Assembly: GCF_008629685.1 (NCBI RefSeq)
Contig: NZ_VWSF01000001.1
Location: forward strand, 62,001-126,000
From: Adhaeribacter rhizoryzae
GTDB taxonomy: Bacteria > Bacteroidota > Bacteroidia > Cytophagales > Hymenobacteraceae
Direction: 5' to 3'
DNA length: 64,000 nucleotides
The position numbers and the translations under genes were made by a program. This document shows positions 10,562 through 28,500 of the stretch, in pieces (the first letter of the stretch is position 1; each line of letters opens with the position of its first letter). Below the pieces are notes generated by a model. The model saw only the letters and a program-made list of their open reading frames with translations. It was not told the DNA's origin and did no database searches.

Positions 10562-11197
10562 ATGAAGAAAAGATGGATTTCAGCCGTAGCCGCAGCCTTA
10601 CTGTTTCCTGCGACATTAGTACTAGCTGATAATAGCGATAAAGGTAAAGTGATTAACCAACCCGCTCAAACCACTGGTGGCTCCACTGCCGGCGGTACTA
10701 CTGCGGGCGGAACAACTAGTGGTGGCACTACTGTTGGCACTACCACAACCGGTACTACATCGGGTACTACCGCCGGTAGAACCACTACTAGTACCACCAG
10801 TGGCATTACAGCTGGTACCAGAACTACGGCTGGCACTACCGCCGGAAGAACCACCACCGGTACCACGGCTGGAACAAGAGGCGGGCGAACTACTGTCGGG
10901 ACAACTGTTGGTACTACCACTGGAACTAGAACAGGTACCACCACCGGAACCACCTCGGGTAGAACCACTACCGGGAGTACCAGCGGTACCACAACTGGCC
11001 GTTCAACCTCTGGAACGACAGCGGGCACTACAGCCGGTACTACCAGTGGAACAACCGCTGGAGGTAGAATGGGAACTACTGCCGGACGGACCACCACAGG
11101 CACAACGGCTGGCGGTACTACAACAACCGGTACAACTAGCGGCGGAACTACTTCCGGGGGGACTACCGCAGGAGGTGGAACTACCGGTGGACGGTAA
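10562..11197 (+). CDS. secreted Thr/Gly low-complexity repeat protein
   Basis: A 211-residue protein with a signal peptide (MKKRWISAVAAALLFPATLV, then LA), a short acidic/basic linker, and about 170 residues made almost only of Thr and Gly with some Ser, Ala, Val and Arg. The pattern is variants of GTTAGTTSG and GRTTTGTT, with no Cys and no aromatic residues in the repeat. The function is unknown. The composition suggests an extended, flexible or beta-stacked cell-surface or matrix protein. The repeat also keeps another forward frame and the reverse strand open, but only this frame has an ATG, a signal peptide and a sensible start. It is bounded downstream by a terminator, so it is a single-gene unit. 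Confidence 0.75.
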   Translation: MKKRWISAVAAALLFPATLVLADNSDKGKVINQPAQTTGGSTAGGTTAGGTTSGGTTVGTTTTGTTSGTTAGRTTTSTTSGITAGTRTTAGTTAGRTTTGTTAGTRGGRTTVGTTVGTTTGTRTGTTTGTTSGRTTTGSTSGTTTGRSTSGTTAGTTAGTTSGTTAGGRMGTTAGRTTTGTTAGGTTTTGTTSGGTTSGGTTAGGGTTGGR

Positions 11198-21177: not shown

Positions 21178-21502
21178 GCGTTGTGTAAATATGTACGTTA
21201 CAAAATTGGGTAATCGAAATTAACTTTTTAAATATTAGTTTAATAAGTTAAAATTTTCTGCTGTTGCCAAGGCTTATACAAGCCGGCAGCAAAAACCAGA
21301 TTGATAAATTTTAAATATTGCCTCAGAAAGATTAACTTGTATTAAATATTTTAAAATTATTTAATCTAATCCCTTTCTGATTGGGTTTTGTGGGTGCCAA
21401 TATGAAAAAATAGTACGGAAATTAAAATTTATATTTTGTTTTGTTCTGAATTATTAATTACTTAGCGGCCCAAAATAAACATTTACCGGACTAAGAAAAA
21501 TA
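21178..21502. other. divergent thrA/ilv promoter region
   Basis: AT-rich region that must hold the thrA promoter (leftward) and the ilv promoter (rightward). A bulged hairpin at about 21268-21298 (GCTG..GCC..GGCTT-ATAC-AAGCC-GGC-AGC) would lie in the thrA leader RNA and could be regulatory. On the minus strand I found no short ORF with Thr/Ile codons. The promoter elements themselves could not be assigned. Confidence 0.45.
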
Positions 21503-21577
21503 ATGAACTTTCGTCACGTCATCCTAAGCCAGATTATTTTTAGCGTCATTATCGACGCTAAGCGGTTAATGGTGTGA
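21503..21577 (+). CDS. ilv leader peptide (24 aa, Ile/Val/Leu-rich)
   Basis: A short ORF from ATG at 21503 to TGA at 21575-21577, preceded by an A-rich ribosome-binding region (AAGAAAAATA). Ten of its 24 residues are branched-chain amino acids, concentrated in HVILSQIIFSVII with Leu and Val again just before the stop. It is followed 21 bp later by a strong terminator and then by ilvD. This is the arrangement of a ribosome-stalling attenuator. When charged Ile/Val/Leu tRNAs are scarce the ribosome would stall in the peptide and change the downstream RNA fold. The call rests on composition, position and structure, not on homology. Confidence 0.8.
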   Translation: MNFRHVILSQIIFSVIIDAKRLMV

Positions 21578-21632
21578 CTTTGTTTTTAAATATAAGATAA
21601 GCGCCATTCCCGAAAGAGTGGCGCTTTTTTTT
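21540..21632 (+). promoter_or_regulatory. ilv operon transcription attenuator
   Basis: Hairpin TTAGCGTC / GACGCTAA (21540-21561) overlaps the stalling codons of the leader peptide. The terminator is AAGCGCCATTC / GAGTGGCGCTT followed by eight T (21599-21632). A competing pairing is visible: AATGGTG (21568-21574) can pair with CGCCATT (21602-21608), which would consume the 5' arm of the terminator. The three elements fit the pause, antiterminator and terminator stems of a leader-peptide attenuator, ending 62 bp before ilvD. Confidence 0.75.
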
Positions 21633-21694
21633 AAATGTGCCGGTACGGAAATAGCATTAGTGTTAAATAAATTTTTAATACCCTAATTAAACCC

Positions 21695-23398
21695 ATGAGT
21701 ACAAAACTAAACCGATACAGCTACCTGGTTACCCAGGAAGAAACCAATCCGGCCGCTCAGGCCATGCTGCACGCCATTGGCTTAAACGATGCCGATTTGC
21801 AAAAAGCCCAGGTGGGTATTGTGAGTACCGGTTTCGACGGTAACCCTTGTAACATGCACCTGAACGACTTAGCCAAACTGGTTAAAAAGGGCGTTAACAG
21901 CACCGACGATGTATTGGGTTTAATATTTCATACGATTGGGGTAAGCGATGGCATTTCGATGGGAACGCCGGGTATGCGTTACTCGCTGCCGTCGCGCGAT
22001 ATTATTGCGGATTCTATTGAAACTGTAGTAAATGCCCAGAGCTACGATGGCGTAATTGCCGTAGTAGGCTGCGATAAAAATATGCCGGGTGCGCTGATTA
22101 GTTTTGCCCGTTTAAACCGCCCGGCCATTATGGTTTATGGCGGTACCATTGCGCCGGGTAATTACTGCGATGCGGCGGGTAAGTTCACCGATAAGAAATT
22201 AGATATTGTTTCGGCGTTTGAAGCGCTGGGCGAAAAATATGCCGGTACTATTTCGCCGGAGGATTTTAAAGGGGTTATTGAACACGCTTGTCCGGGTGCC
22301 GGGGCTTGCGGTGGTATGTACACGGCTAATACCATGGCTTCGGCCGCCGAAGCATTGGGTATTGCTTTGCCTTATACCTCATCTAACCCAGCCATTAGCC
22401 CTGATAAAAGCGAAGAATGCGTACAGGCGGGTTTGGCTATTCGGCAGTTGTTAGAAAAAGATATTAAGCCATTAGATATTTTAACCAAAAAGGCTTTTGA
22501 AAACGCCATGGTGGTAGTTACCATTTTAGGTGGCTCTACTAATGCGGTGTTGCACTTGCTGGCCATTGCCCGCACCGCCGGCGTAGATATTACCATCGAC
22601 GATTTCCAGCGCATCAGCGACAAAACGCCTTTACTGGCCGATATGAAGCCGAGTGGCAAATACCACATGGAGCAGGTACACAAAATTGGTGGTATTCCAG
22701 CGGTTATGAAAATGTTATGGAAAGCGGGTTTATTGCACGGCGATTGCTTAACTGTAACTGGTAAAACCATAGCCGAAAACCTGGAAAACGTGCCCGATAT
22801 GGCCGAAGGTCAGGATGTAATTATGCCGCTGGATAAACCGATAAAAGAAACCGGCCACATTCGTATTTTGTACGGCAATTTAGCGGAGCAAGGCGGGGTG
22901 GCTAAAATAACCGGTAAAGAAGGCGAAATATTTACCGGTACCGCCGTGGTATTCGACGGGGAGTTTGAGGCCAACGACGGTATTCTAGCTGGTAAAGTAA
23001 AAGAAGGCGATGTGTTGGTTATCCGGTACGAAGGCCCTAAAGGCGGACCCGGTATGCCCGAAATGCTAAAGCCTACTTCTTTAATTATGGGAGCCGGTTT
23101 AGGTAAATCGGTGGCTTTAATTACCGATGGCCGGTTCTCGGGTGGTACGCACGGTTTTGTGGTAGGCCATATTACCCCGGAAGCCCACGTGGGCGGCATG
23201 CTTGGTTTGCTGCAGGATGGCGATAAAATTACCATAGATGCGGTTAACAACCGGTTAGAAGTAGATTTAAGCGAAGAAGAAATTGCTCGTCGCCGGGCTG
23301 CCTGGCAGGAACGGCCGTTGCGCAAAACTTCCGGTATATTATATAAATACGCCAAAACGGTGTCGTCGGCATCGGAAGGTTGTGTTACCGATAGATAA
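21695..23398 (+). CDS. ilvD: dihydroxy-acid dehydratase
   Basis: Dehydrates 2,3-dihydroxy acids to 2-oxo acids in isoleucine and valine synthesis. The 567-residue protein carries the iron-sulfur cysteines of the IlvD/Edd family: [23 protein letters not shown] and [16 protein letters not shown]. The C-terminal [22 protein letters not shown] is also typical. It is the first structural gene after the attenuator and heads the plus-strand ilv run. The 102-bp gap to ilvB contains a candidate internal promoter. Confidence 0.97.
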
Positions 23399-23500: not shown

Positions 23501-25240
23501 ATGAGTGTAGCAGTAGAAATTAAGGAAAAGGAACCGAAAACCGAGCCAAAAAAGATGCTCGTTACCGGCGCGCAAGGTGTGTTACTGTCGTTGCTGGAAG
23601 AAGGGGTCGATACTATTTTTGGATACCCGGGTGGCGCTATCATGCCCATCTACGATGCACTCTATGATTTCTCCGATAGCCTAAAGCATTATTTGGTCCG
23701 GCACGAACAAGGCGGCGCACACGCAGCGCAGGGTTATGCCCGCATTACCGGTAAGCCGGGCGTGTGTTTTGCCACTTCGGGCCCGGGTGCTACCAATTTA
23801 ATTACCGGTATTGCCGATGCGCAGATAGATTCTACCCCGATGGTTTGTATTACCGGGCAGGTATTCTCACATTTATTAGGTACGGATGCTTTCCAGGAAA
23901 CCGATGTACTGGGCGTAACCATGCCGGTTACCAAATGGAGTTACCAGGTAACCCGCGCCGAAGAAATTCCGGAAGCCATTGCCAAAGCTTTTTACATTGC
24001 CACCTCCGGCCGGCCTGGTCCGGTACTGATAGATATTACCAAAGATGCGCAGAATGCCACCTTTGAGTTTAATTACAAAAAGTGGAAAAAAATTGCCAGC
24101 TACTTCCCGGTACCTAAATTAAAACAATCGGAAGTAGTTGCGGCGGCCGAATTAATTAACCAGGCTAAAAAGCCATTTGTTATCTGGGGCCAGGGCGTTT
24201 TGTTGAGCCATGCCGAAGAGGAATTTAAAGCCTTTATTGAGAAAGCGGGCTTACCAGCGGCTTGGACCATTTTGGGTTTATCAGGATTGGAGACCGAACA
24301 CCCGCTGAACGTGGGTATGCTGGGCATGCACGGCAATTACGGCCCTAACCTGAAAACCAACGAGTGCGATGTGCTGATTGCGATTGGTATGCGTTTCGAC
24401 GACCGCGTAACCGGCGATTTAAAACGTTATGCCAAGCAGGCTAAAATTATTCATATCGAAATAGATCAGGCCGAAATAAATAAAAATGTACACGCCCATG
24501 TTGCCGTAAATGCCGATGCCAAAGAAGCTTTGCAGGCCTTGTTGCCATTAGTAGAGCAACGGGAGCATAAAGAATGGGTACAAAGCTTTTTCGACTGTTA
24601 TAAAATAGAGTTCGATAAAGTCATTCGGGAACAATTGTTTCCCAACACGCCCGGTTTGCAAATGGGCGAAGCCGTTCGAATTATTTCGGAATTAACCGAA
24701 GGCAAAGCGGTGTTAGTAACCGACGTAGGGCAGCACCAGATGGTGGGTATGCGCTACTATAACTTTAAAGAAACCCGCAGCAATATTACTTCGGGTGGCT
24801 TGGGAACGATGGGCTTTTGTTTACCGGCGGCCATGGGGGCTAAAGTAGGCGCGCCCGATCGCCAGGTAATTGCAGTAATCGGCGACGGTGGTTTCCAGAT
24901 GACCATCCAGGAATTGGGTTGTATTTTCCAGTACCAAATAGGCGTTAAGATTGTAATTCTGAACAACAATTTCCTGGGCATGGTACGGCAGTGGCAGCAA
25001 CTTTTCCACCATAAACGCTACTCGTTTACCGAAATGGTGAACCCCGATTTTGTAGGAATTGCCAAAGCTTACGGCATTGCCGGCAGCAAAGTAACCGAAC
25101 GTGAATATTTGCAAGGACATATAAAAGAAATGCTGGCGCACGATGGCCCTTATTTGTTAGAGGTTGTAGTGGAAAAAGAAGAGAACGTGTTCCCAATGGT
25201 ACCGGCCGGCGATTCAGTAGCTAATATCCGGTTAGATTAG
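23501..25240 (+). CDS. ilvB: acetolactate synthase large subunit
   Basis: TPP- and FAD-dependent synthesis of acetolactate or acetohydroxybutyrate from pyruvate, the first common step of Ile/Val synthesis. The 579-residue protein shows the N-terminal TPP-domain loop FGYPGGAIMPIYDAL with the activating Glu in RHEQGGAHAAQGYAR, and GKPGVCFATSGPGATN. The C-terminal Mg-TPP motif runs from GDGGFQMTIQELG to NNNFLGMVRQWQQ. An N-terminal Lys/Glu-rich extension of about 18 residues precedes the catalytic fold. The small subunit gene follows after 149 bp. Confidence 0.97.
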   Translation: MSVAVEIKEKEPKTEPKKMLVTGAQGVLLSLLEEGVDTIFGYPGGAIMPIYDALYDFSDSLKHYLVRHEQGGAHAAQGYARITGKPGVCFATSGPGATNLITGIADAQIDSTPMVCITGQVFSHLLGTDAFQETDVLGVTMPVTKWSYQVTRAEEIPEAIAKAFYIATSGRPGPVLIDITKDAQNATFEFNYKKWKKIASYFPVPKLKQSEVVAAAELINQAKKPFVIWGQGVLLSHAEEEFKAFIEKAGLPAAWTILGLSGLETEHPLNVGMLGMHGNYGPNLKTNECDVLIAIGMRFDDRVTGDLKRYAKQAKIIHIEIDQAEINKNVHAHVAVNADAKEALQALLPLVEQREHKEWVQSFFDCYKIEFDKVIREQLFPNTPGLQMGEAVRIISELTEGKAVLVTDVGQHQMVGMRYYNFKETRSNITSGGLGTMGFCLPAAMGAKVGAPDRQVIAVIGDGGFQMTIQELGCIFQYQIGVKIVILNNNFLGMVRQWQQLFHHKRYSFTEMVNPDFVGIAKAYGIAGSKVTEREYLQGHIKEMLAHDGPYLLEVVVEKEENVFPMVPAGDSVANIRLD

Positions 25241-25389: not shown

Positions 25390-25950
25390 ATGGATACAGC
25401 GCCCAATTATTCCGATTCAGAAGAAAGAACTTATACCATATTTGCCTTTACGGAAAACAAAGTAGGTCTGCTGAACCGGATAGTCATTATTTTTACCCGG
25501 CGTCATATAAATATCGAAAGCTTAACGGCCTCTGAGTCGGAAGTGCCGGGCGTTTACCGGTATACCATTATTATCCGGGCGCGTTACGAGCAGGTAGAAA
25601 AGCTGGTGAAGCAGATCTCCAAACAGGTAGATGTCCTGCGCGCCTCTTTTTACCCGGAAGACGAAACCGTATTTCAGGAAATGGCGCTTTATAAAATCCC
25701 GATGACTTCGCTTATTAGCGGCCACGAGGTAGAAAAAATAGTGCGCGATAGCTACGCCCGTATTTTAACGGTAGACCCGCAATATATTATTATTGAGAAA
25801 ACCGGTCACCTGGAAGAAACCAAAGCTTTATTTGAGCAACTGAAGCCGTTTGGTATTTTGCAGTTCTCGCGCTCGGGCCGGGTAGCAATTACCAAGCACA
25901 TGAAAGATCTCAGCACATATTTAAGAGAACAGGCTGAGGCGCATTTATAA
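25390..25950 (+). CDS. ilvN: acetolactate synthase small (regulatory) subunit
   Basis: The regulatory partner of IlvB, conferring valine feedback. It is 186 residues with an N-terminal ACT domain (YTIFAFTENKVGLLNRIVIIFTRRHINIESLTASES, about residues 15-50) and a second ALS_ss C-terminal domain with REVALYKI-like EMALYKIPM and FGILQFSRSGRVAITK. The gene could also be called ilvH. Start at 25390 is supported by the ATG and the A/G-rich leader. It is followed by ilvC after 131 bp. Confidence 0.95.
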   Translation: MDTAPNYSDSEERTYTIFAFTENKVGLLNRIVIIFTRRHINIESLTASESEVPGVYRYTIIIRARYEQVEKLVKQISKQVDVLRASFYPEDETVFQEMALYKIPMTSLISGHEVEKIVRDSYARILTVDPQYIIIEKTGHLEETKALFEQLKPFGILQFSRSGRVAITKHMKDLSTYLREQAEAHL

Positions 25951-26081: not shown

Positions 26082-27128
26082 ATGGCAAAAATTAACTTCG
26101 GCGGAACAGAAGAAAACGTAGTAACCCGTGAAGAATTCCCACTTGACAAAGCCCGGGAAGTACTGAAAAACGAGACAATCGCAGTATTAGGTTACGGCGT
26201 ACAAGGTCCTGGCCAGGCACTAAACCTACGCGACAATGGCTTTAACGTAATTGTTGGTCAGCGTAAAGATTCTAAAACCTGGGAAAAAGCCCTGAAGGAT
26301 GGCTGGGTAGAAGGTGAAACGTTGTTTGAGCTGGAAGAAGCTTGCGAGCGTGGTACTATTCTGCAATTCTTACTTTCTGATGCCGGCCAAATTGCAGCCT
26401 GGCCTATGGTACAAAAAGCCCTGAAACCAGGTAAAACCCTTTACTTCTCGCACGGTTTCGGTGTTACTTTCAGCGACCGGACCGGTATTGTACCGTCTAA
26501 AGATGTTGATGTAATTCTGGTAGCACCTAAAGGTTCTGGTACCAGCTTACGCCGCATGTTCCTGGAAGGAAAAGGTCTGAACTCCAGCTTTGCCATTTAC
26601 CAGGATGCTTCTGGTAACGCCCGCGAAAAAGCGGTTGCTTTGGGTATTGGTGTTGGTTCTGGTTATTTATTCGAAACTGATTTCAAAAAAGAAGTATATT
26701 CTGACTTAACCGGTGAGCGTGGTACTTTAATGGGTGCTTTAGCTGGTATCCTGGAAGCGCAATACAACTTGCTGCGCAAAAAAGGTCACTCGCCATCTGA
26801 GTCTTTCAACGAAACCGTAGAAGAATTAACCGAAAGTTTAATTTTATTGGTAGCGGAAAATGGTATGGACTGGATGTATGCTAACTGCTCTACTACTGCC
26901 CAACGTGGTGCGTTAGACTGGAAAAACAAATTCCGCGATGCCGTAGCTCCGGTGTTTGAAGAATTATACGAAAGCGTAGCTACCGGCGAAGAAGCCCAGC
27001 GCTCTATCGATACCAACAGCCAGCCAGATTACCGCGAGAAACTGGATGCGGAATTAAAAGAACTGCGCGATTCAGAAATGTGGCAGGCAGGTGCGCAAGT
27101 GCGCAAACTGCGTCCGCAGAATAACTAA
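26082..27128 (+). CDS. ilvC: ketol-acid reductoisomerase
   Basis: NADPH-dependent isomeroreduction of acetolactate-type acids in Ile/Val synthesis. The 348-residue protein begins with a Rossmann loop GYGVQGPGQALNLRDNG, has VAPKGSGTSLRRMFLEGKG, and then the KARI catalytic acids in YSDLTGERGTLMGALAGILEAQ and the C-terminal NETVEELTES helix. The QGPGQ loop resembles other Bacteroidota KARIs and differs from the common QGHAH-type loop. Its codon use is a little more uniform than its neighbours', as expected for an abundant enzyme. Confidence 0.97.
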   Translation: MAKINFGGTEENVVTREEFPLDKAREVLKNETIAVLGYGVQGPGQALNLRDNGFNVIVGQRKDSKTWEKALKDGWVEGETLFELEEACERGTILQFLLSDAGQIAAWPMVQKALKPGKTLYFSHGFGVTFSDRTGIVPSKDVDVILVAPKGSGTSLRRMFLEGKGLNSSFAIYQDASGNAREKAVALGIGVGSGYLFETDFKKEVYSDLTGERGTLMGALAGILEAQYNLLRKKGHSPSESFNETVEELTESLILLVAENGMDWMYANCSTTAQRGALDWKNKFRDAVAPVFEELYESVATGEEAQRSIDTNSQPDYREKLDAELKELRDSEMWQAGAQVRKLRPQNN

Positions 27129-27225: not shown

Positions 27226-28500
27226 ATGTCAGAAGTAGTGCAGGCAGTTGTAAAAGATAAAGTAAGTGTAGCGGGCATACAAGCTGCTGAAGAAAGATTA
27301 AAGGAAGTAGTGGTGCGTACGCCGCTTATCCGGAGTATGAATTTATCGGAGCGGTACGAAGCAAATATTTACCTGAAGCGGGAAGATTTGCAGGTAGTGC
27401 GTTCTTATAAACTACGCGGGGCTTACAATATTATGAAAAGCCTTACTGCAGACCAATTACAAAATGGTGTAGTTTGTGCCAGTGCTGGTAACCACGCCCA
27501 GGGAGTAGCTTATTCGTGCCACCACATGGGTATTAAGGGACATATTTTTATGCCGATTACCACGCCTAATCAAAAAATTAAACAAGTACAGTTATTTGGC
27601 CGCGAACACGCCGAGGTAGTGCTGGTAGGCGATACCTTTGATGACTGTTATTACGAAGCACTAAAGTTCTCCGAGCAGCATCAAATGGCGTTTATTCATC
27701 CCTTTGATAACCCTAAGGGGATTGAAGGGCAAGGCACCGTGGGTGTAGAGATTCTGGACGACATGAAAGGGCCGGTAGATTTACTAATTGTACCGGTTGG
27801 CGGTGGCGGTCTGGCCGCTGGCGTGTCTACTTATTTTAAAGCGATGAGCCCCCAGACCAAAGTAGTGGGGGTGGAGCCGGCTGGTGCGCCTTCCATGAAA
27901 AAATCGCTGGACGCCGGTCAGAAAGTAACCCTCGACCAGATTGATAAGTTTGTGGATGGGGCGGCGGTAAAATCGGTAGGGGACTTAACTTTCCAGATTT
28001 GCCGCGAAAACCTGGACGATATGCTAACCATACCCGAGGGTAAAATCTGTACCACCATTTTGCAGCTTTACAACGAAGAAGCCATTGTGGCCGAACCGGC
28101 TGGTGCTTTATCTATCGCGGCTTTAGACTTCTTTAAAGACGAAATTAAAGGCAAAAACGTGGTTTGTGTGGTAAGCGGTGGCAACAACGATATTACCCGT
28201 ACCGAAGAAATAAAAGAGCGCTCGTTGCTGTACGAAGGCCTGAAGCATTACTTTATCGTAAACTTCCCGCAACGCGCCGGCGCCCTGAAAGAGTTTGTAA
28301 ACGATATTCTGGGCCCCACCGACGATATTACCCACTTTGAGTATACCAAGAAAAACAGCCGTGAAAAAGGCCCGGCCTTAGTTGGCATTGAGCTAAAAAA
28401 CCGCGACGATTTTGAGGCGCTGGTAAAGCGCATGGCCGATCGTAACTTTAACTGCGAATACATTAACGACCGTCCAGAATTTTACCATTTTATTATTTGA
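27226..28500 (+). CDS. ilvA: threonine dehydratase (biosynthetic, short form)
   Basis: PLP-dependent deamination of threonine to 2-oxobutyrate, the entry to isoleucine. The 424-residue protein has the PLP lysine in VVRSYKLRGAYN, the phosphate loop VPVGGGGLAAGVS and SAGNHAQGVAYS. The C-terminal part (about 340-424, HYFIVNFPQRAGALKEFVND) is a single ACT-like domain, as in the roughly 420-residue forms, rather than the double domain of the 510-residue enzyme. It closes the plus-strand ilv group and links the thr genes on one side of the region with ilv on the other. Confidence 0.96.
   Translation: MSEVVQAVVKDKVSVAGIQAAEERLKEVVVRTPLIRSMNLSERYEANIYLKREDLQVVRSYKLRGAYNIMKSLTADQLQNGVVCASAGNHAQGVAYSCHHMGIKGHIFMPITTPNQKIKQVQLFGREHAEVVLVGDTFDDCYYEALKFSEQHQMAFIHPFDNPKGIEGQGTVGVEILDDMKGPVDLLIVPVGGGGLAAGVSTYFKAMSPQTKVVGVEPAGAPSMKKSLDAGQKVTLDQIDKFVDGAAVKSVGDLTFQICRENLDDMLTIPEGKICTTILQLYNEEAIVAEPAGALSIAALDFFKDEIKGKNVVCVVSGGNNDITRTEEIKERSLLYEGLKHYFIVNFPQRAGALKEFVNDILGPTDDITHFEYTKKNSREKGPALVGIELKNRDDFEALVKRMADRNFNCEYINDRPEFYHFII

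Follow-up and report, generated by a model that had tools for sequence, protein, structure and literature searches.

A probable ribosome-mediated attenuator in front of ilvD in Adhaeribacter rhizoryzae, with a patchy set of counterparts across Bacteroidota

The leader of ilvD in Adhaeribacter rhizoryzae very probably controls branched-chain amino acid synthesis by ribosome-mediated transcription attenuation; this is the best explanation of its features, and translation of a short leader ORF probably decides whether transcription continues into the ilv genes. Within the stretch of DNA analysed here (64,000 nt, hereafter the window), ilvD is preceded by a leader ORF rich in Ile, Val and Leu, by competing RNA stems and by a terminator (Table 1); the ORF and the structures are conserved within the genus, and strands 2 and 3 of the RNA covary across distant lineages. 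Ribosome-mediated attenuation itself is a known mechanism, to which the ilvD leader of this genus adds a new case. The same interpretation had been offered in a first-pass annotation of this DNA, and it is supported by the ORF, the competing stems, the operon content and the covariation among 33 representative attenuators.

Table 1. Features of the ilvD leader and of the genes downstream (window coordinates)
Feature	Position	Strand	Remarks
Promoter-like conserved block TTACTTAGCG	21458..21467	+	about 35-45 bp upstream of the leader ATG
Leader peptide ORF	21503..21577	+	24 codons, encodes MNFRHVILSQIIFSVIIDAKRLMV
Strand 1 (GTCACGTCAT)	21513..21522	+	from the fold of ATG to stop+12; predicted partner of strand 2 without ribosome
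In-ORF hairpin TTAGCGTC-ATTATC-GACGCTAA	21540..21561	+	inside the leader ORF; likely pause hairpin
Strand 2 (AATGGTGT)	21568..21575	+	reaches into the leader stop codon
Strand 3, terminator 5' arm	21599..21609	+	GCGCCATT at 21601-21608 pairs with strand 2
Strand 4, terminator 3' arm	21616..21626	+	terminator stem 21599-21626
Terminator T tract	21625..21632	+	end lies 62 bp upstream of ilvD (21695)
ilvD, dihydroxy-acid dehydratase	21695..23398	+	TIGR00110, 741.6 bits (cut-off 618.15)
ilvB, acetolactate synthase large subunit	23501..25240	+	TIGR00118, 707.5 bits (cut-off 538.35)
ilvN-like, acetolactate synthase small subunit	25390..25950	+	NF008864, 107.3 bits (slightly below the cut-off of 119)
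ilvC, ketol-acid reductoisomerase	26082..27128	+	TIGR00465, 309.5 bits (cut-off 226.15)
ilvA, threonine ammonia-lyase	27226..28500	+	NF006390, 668.6 bits (cut-off 421)

Judging by gene spacing and direction, everything from the leader to ilvA would form one operon. A profile scan (ten proteins in all) places thrA, thrB, thrC, leuA and leuC divergently on the minus strand, with leuA inside this thr-leu cluster. The closest named relatives of IlvD come from Saprospiraceae, Flavobacteriaceae and similar groups. An inverted repeat, CAGAAAG/CTTTCTG at 21324-21334 and 21366-21379, was seen by eye in the thrA-ilvD divergent region and may be an operator or a product of chance. Elsewhere in the window, an ORF at 10562-11197 carries a long repetitive tail rich in Thr and Gly.

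The leader ORF, described in the first-pass annotation as 24 codons with ten branched-chain residues upstream of ilvD, was found just as claimed. Ile, Val and Leu occupy 10 of its 24 codons (V6, I7, L8, I11, I12, V15, I16, I17, L22 and V24). Eight genomes of the genus, the window's own included (loci L001-L008), were compared, and all eight keep the 24-codon ORF, the peptide end IIDAKR[LW]MV and the terminator; the C-terminal half, II[FL]SVIIDAKR[LW]MV, is nearly invariant within the genus. The distance from the leader stop codon to the antiterminator arm GCGCCATT is 26 nt in every one of them, and that from the ORF start to ilvD varies between 192 and 273 nt. In the comparison with relatives that had been proposed as a check, 8/8 same-genus genomes retain the ORF together with its Ile/Val/Leu content and the competing stems. 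Further upstream, a TTAC(A)TTAGC block is aligned in all eight regions; TTACTTAGCG, which we take to resemble the -7 motif of Bacteroidota, is a possible -7 promoter element.

The 211-nt leader region folds more stably than dinucleotide shuffles (z = -3.3), and its elements interlock with the coding sequence: a hairpin sits on the codons for FSVIIDAK, exposing the Ile16-Ile17 codon pair as its loop (ATTATC), and strand 2 covers the final residues together with the stop codon. The first-pass annotation had recognized a pause-like hairpin and put it after the ORF; the hairpin is there, but lies inside the ORF. Its antiterminator pairing, AATGGTG with CGCCATT, is likewise present, although one wobble pair longer than described, and the strong terminator that it had placed 62 bp before ilvD ends exactly there. 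In the eight-row same-genus alignment, 100% of the cells of the in-ORF hairpin are paired, with 7/8 pairs invariant, as are 95.5% of those of the terminator and 95.8% of those of the antiterminator. No pair is changed on both sides among these eight sequences, and the same-genus alignment therefore shows conservation, not compensation.

The competition between the stems was modelled by folding each same-genus leader under three ribosome assumptions, the footprint being taken as 12 nt. In the ribosome-free state, strand 2 is paired with the early part of the ORF in 8/8 leaders; the register of this strand 1:2 pairing differs between species, and L005 uses a different one that gives a short helix with fewer pairs. 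When a ribosome sits at codon 17 and the RNA stops after strand 3, the 2:3 pairing forms in all eight (-10.8 to -12.5 kcal/mol), and when it sits at the leader stop codon the terminator folds in all eight (-15.5 to -18.8 kcal/mol). The folds are as expected in 8/8, and in the window strand 2 runs into the stop codon, so that by geometry a ribosome there would cover it and one that stalls earlier, at the control codons, would leave it free. After synthesis of strand 4, the terminator is favoured at equilibrium in the same-genus folds, and in the window the antiterminator (-11.3 kcal/mol) is weaker than the terminator (-18.6 kcal/mol), so that the antiterminator must form first and win kinetically. 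In classical attenuators, too, the antiterminator has to form before the terminator. Taken singly, the window's strand 2:3 duplex reaches only z = -1.0 against shuffles, and its in-ORF hairpin is no stronger than synonymous-codon shuffles (mean 12.9 vs 13), a comparison that is uninformative for the window.

In the proposed mechanism, these elements would respond to amino acid supply through leader translation, ribosome stalling and pausing of RNA polymerase, as follows. Transcription would start upstream of 21503, and the in-ORF hairpin would make RNA polymerase pause as a ribosome begins the leader. If charged Ile, Val and Leu tRNAs are plentiful, the ribosome would reach the stop codon and cover strand 2, leaving strands 3 and 4 to form the terminator. 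If one charged tRNA is scarce, the ribosome would stall at codons 6-8, 11-12 or 15-17 and mask strand 1, whereupon strand 2 would be free to capture strand 3 and transcription would proceed into the ilv genes. If the leader is not translated at all, strand 1 would hold strand 2 and the terminator would form.

Counterparts of this arrangement were sought upstream of ilvD with a two-part detector, which asks for an ORF of 10-40 codons starting with ATG (the only start it sees) in which at least five (loose) or at least six (strict) of eight consecutive residues are Ile, Leu or Val, with a stem-loop and a T run no more than 120 nt downstream. The window's own leader peptide, whose best eight-residue stretch holds five branched-chain residues, passes the loose setting and fails the strict one. 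Upstream regions were taken from 201 loci (80 from genome_contigs and 121 from other genomes), with the ilvD starts of relatives assigned by script, and the detector was run on the 200 regions that reached 300 bp, L105 with only 28 bp upstream being left out. The loose setting matched 68/200 regions vs 2/2000 shuffles, and the strict setting 59/200 vs 0/2000; reverse complements gave 5/200 and 3/200 matches, respectively. In an earlier run on 700 bp at the strict setting, 38 of 110 regions (L105 among them) and none of 2180 shuffles were matched. Across the window itself, cut into 318 overlapping 800-nt tiles and read on both strands, the loose detector returned a single match, the ilvD attenuator, and the strict detector returned 0/318.

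By set, loose-detector positives amount to 28/72 in the family, 34/79 in genome_contigs, 6/38 in the class sample and 1/14 in the order's other families, and negatives to 44/72, 45/79, 32/38 and 13/14, these four sets having a few loci in common. The sequences thus point to an attenuator that is widespread in Bacteroidota but patchy, the majority of the sampled relatives being detector-negative. Part of this absence arises because the detector misses real cases, namely L008 (where the T tract is interrupted), L146 and L175, and some loci have a gene directly adjoining ilvD on its upstream side. Conversely, two positives are doubtful, L134 (a membrane-like small ORF) and the first unit of L049 (a duplex of only -2.3 kcal/mol); both were retained in every count and permutation. 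L134 is one of several loci (with L088, L130, L131 and L142) in which an ORF of about 40 codons, beginning MIIFLI or alike, precedes a terminator-like stem upstream of ilvD; these ORFs look membrane-like, are Pro-rich towards the end, and probably encode a small protein and not a leader.

The leader sequence itself is distributed far more narrowly. A covariance model found a single strong copy per genome, upstream of ilvD, in 8/8 same-genus genomes (148.8-152.8 bits), together with five further weak matches (E 0.008 to 0.1); the idea of further copies elsewhere in the genome was accordingly rejected. Among 194 genomes sampled from the order, strong matches were confined to G000 and one same-genus genome, next to five weak ones (E 0.004-0.009). 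As strong matches stay within the genus, the sequence looks genus-specific, and the architecture alone is shared.

Covariation was therefore sought in that architecture across lineages. The 68 detector-positive loci yielded 78 ORF-terminator units, which were reduced by shared 6-mers to 33 dissimilar representatives; these were picked separately for each of three analyses (two pairing tests and the in-ORF hairpin), and the sets may differ slightly. The RNA around a leader stop codon pairs with the 5' arm of its cognate terminator at a mean of -11.5 kcal/mol, vs -7.3 (sd 0.43) when the arms are permuted (n = 33), and none of 20,000 permutations equalled the cognate pairing. The cognate arm ranked first for 9/33 representatives and among the top three for 19/33, and a repeat with fixed windows gave the same picture (-10.9 vs -6.8, with 0/20,000 permutations as good). 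A control segment from the 5' end of the ORF, by comparison, gave no pairing signal (-2.88 vs -3.01, with 13,623/20,000 permutations as good). This permutation result is the main evidence, as it indicates at the level of sequence that arms unlike each other keep the same competing geometry. It also bears on the first-pass annotation's proposal to look for compensatory changes, which appear as co-variation across the dissimilar attenuators, though not as any double change within the genus. The strand 2:3 duplex scores z < -2 against shuffles in 35/78 units (44.9%), and in the 33 representatives the stem begins 16-45 nt (median 24) after the stop codon. Strand 1:2 pairing is weak across lineages, with 162/20,000 permutations as good.

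The in-ORF hairpin recurs as well. A hairpin of at least five pairs, within the ORF or at its end, is present in 25/33 representatives, and the hairpin scores exceed those of synonymous-codon shuffles that keep the peptide (mean 7.8 vs 4.9, Wilcoxon p 1.5e-4, 33 representatives). In 10 of these 25, as read from the printed list, an Ile codon lies in the loop, as it does in the window. In some representatives the 3' arm extends beyond the stop codon, so that those are 1:2 hairpins and not separate pause hairpins.

The same comparisons bear on the alternatives. One is that the nascent leader peptide itself, as in the nascent-peptide arrest of TnaC, halts the ribosome in response to a metabolite and not to a scarce charged tRNA. 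The near-invariant C-terminal half of the peptide in the genus is what such arrest would lead one to expect, but RNA explains this conservation, given that the hairpin occupies the FSVIIDAK codons and strand 2 the final residues together with the stop codon. Moreover, peptide sequences differ across lineages whereas branched-chain content persists (25.6% I, 13.2% V and 8.3% L among 696 leader residues of 33 representatives, which the detector selects for such residues), and peptide arrest is very unlikely. An equally slim chance is given to a constitutive terminator that has no part in ilv control and ends a short upstream transcript, specifying a small RNA or a small protein. The strength of the terminator would suit that role, and a promoter of ilvD's own could fit into the 62-bp gap; in several relatives the terminator and ilvD lie more than 250 nt apart. 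However, a terminator of this kind would need neither a branched-chain-rich ORF nor a stop-codon segment whose sequence changes in step with that of its 5' arm among the 33 representatives. That a riboswitch sensing a metabolite, or an element of the T-box type, acts on this terminator is hardly credible and was rejected as a candidate, for although a terminator/antiterminator switch does not by itself identify its sensor, the leader ORF and its residues are conserved, and Rfam gave no match at gathering thresholds anywhere in the window, amino-acid leader families included, and none at E <= 1 on L001, the window's ilvD locus.

Some loci carry more than one ribosome-mediated attenuator of the proposed type. 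The detector found two units upstream of ilvD in 10/68 loci, and in nine of these each unit has a strand 2:3 duplex of its own, at -9.1 kcal/mol or below: L071 (Bizionia arctica), L057 (Tenacibaculum agarivorans), L033, L043, L045, L062, L066 and L067 (Aquimarina) and L119, from the window's family. In L049 the first of the two units is the doubtful one mentioned above, and in L175, also of the window's family and missed by the detector, two units were recognized by eye. Serial attenuators would be expected to multiply read-through, and such a tandem may represent a novel form of attenuation; judging by titles and the start of abstracts, no paper returned by a literature search on tandem leader-peptide attenuators was on the subject. 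Bizionia arctica also has, close to its ilvD leaders, a SAM-II riboswitch that scores above its gathering threshold (L071, 2111-2170, minus strand).

Leaders of this general kind were also sought at other biosynthetic operons. A Trp-Trp leader (e.g., MKNITLHTAGWWHLLEN) with a terminator lies upstream of trpE in 7/8 same-genus loci (L220-L226, not L219), the trpE leader of the window's own genome being at about 2900-3050 of L226 on the minus strand; Rfam Trp_leader matches at trpE stay below threshold (E 0.012 in L226 and 0.24 in L220). Branched-chain-type matches occur in the trpE-related loci L223, L229, L231 and L233. A similar leader before hisG in the genus was rejected, with no match in the flanks of eight loci, and nothing convincing was found before leuA, where the flanks of nine loci gave one weak match (L218). 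Before the divergent thrA, no Thr-rich leader was seen by eye on the minus strand, nor did the branched-chain detector find anything there.

In Proteobacteria, ribosome-mediated attenuators of the ilv, leu and thr operons (the ilvL/ivbL/leuL/thrL type) are textbook cases. The ilvD leader resembles them in its short ORF rich in regulatory residues, its mutually exclusive pairings (2:3 and 3:4, with a predicted 1:2) and its intrinsic terminator before the structural genes. It differs from them in that the window has no Rfam match and the likely pause hairpin is part of the ORF, an Ile-Ile codon pair forming its loop, and in that some Bacteroidota carry two serial units. Sub-threshold Rfam matches were obtained in the leader regions of L035 and L071 (Thr_leader, E 0.02-0.08; Phe_leader, E 0.33), and the Bacteroid-trp motif RF01692 gave no match at E <= 1 in the eight loci scanned, two trpE loci among them. 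This motif holds a Trp leader ORF and, like the window leader, belongs to Bacteroidetes, but it concerns tryptophan and not branched-chain amino acids. In the accessible part of a 2010 survey it is classed as cis-regulatory (PMC2864571). The uORF of Corynebacterium ilvBNC (ilvB-II motif), as far as its source could be consulted, is likewise a conserved uORF that lies upstream of ilv genes and regulates their expression (PMC10272879), in another phylum and before another first gene, the likeness being one of description.

For Bacteroidota, a literature search that lay mostly outside subscription papers returned no paper on leader peptides or attenuation by title and abstract start. This agrees with the first-pass annotation, which had called the mechanism little described in this phylum; the available text of PMC2864571 already contains the cis-regulatory Bacteroid-trp motif. 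A 2010 survey of premature terminators, in the portion at hand, knows leader-peptide systems only from Proteobacteria and Actinobacteria and adds Firmicutes, and no Bacteroid- terms were found in that portion of its main text (PMC2965389). A comparative attenuation paper (Lopatovskaya 2010), which is represented here by its reference in PMC4833913, may have predicted such systems, and hence no priority is claimed.

A broader reading is put forward tentatively, as a serious possibility that we would not yet bet on: in Bacteroidota, attenuation may be a main, separately evolved control of branched-chain synthesis, with an architecture of its own (control codons in the loop of the pause hairpin and an antiterminator arm over the leader stop codon), and in several lineages with two serial units, whose read-through would be the product of two independent ribosome readings and give a sharper response. 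Attenuation by the leading ribosome requires close coupling of transcription and translation, and Bacteroidota rarely use Shine-Dalgarno sites. A recurrent branched-chain attenuator in this phylum would argue that coupling works there, and the ilv attenuator offers a ready reporter with which to test it. Likewise, the tandem units allow one to ask whether two serial attenuators multiply, and the attenuators as a whole give small ORFs of a hidden class an annotation that can be tested.
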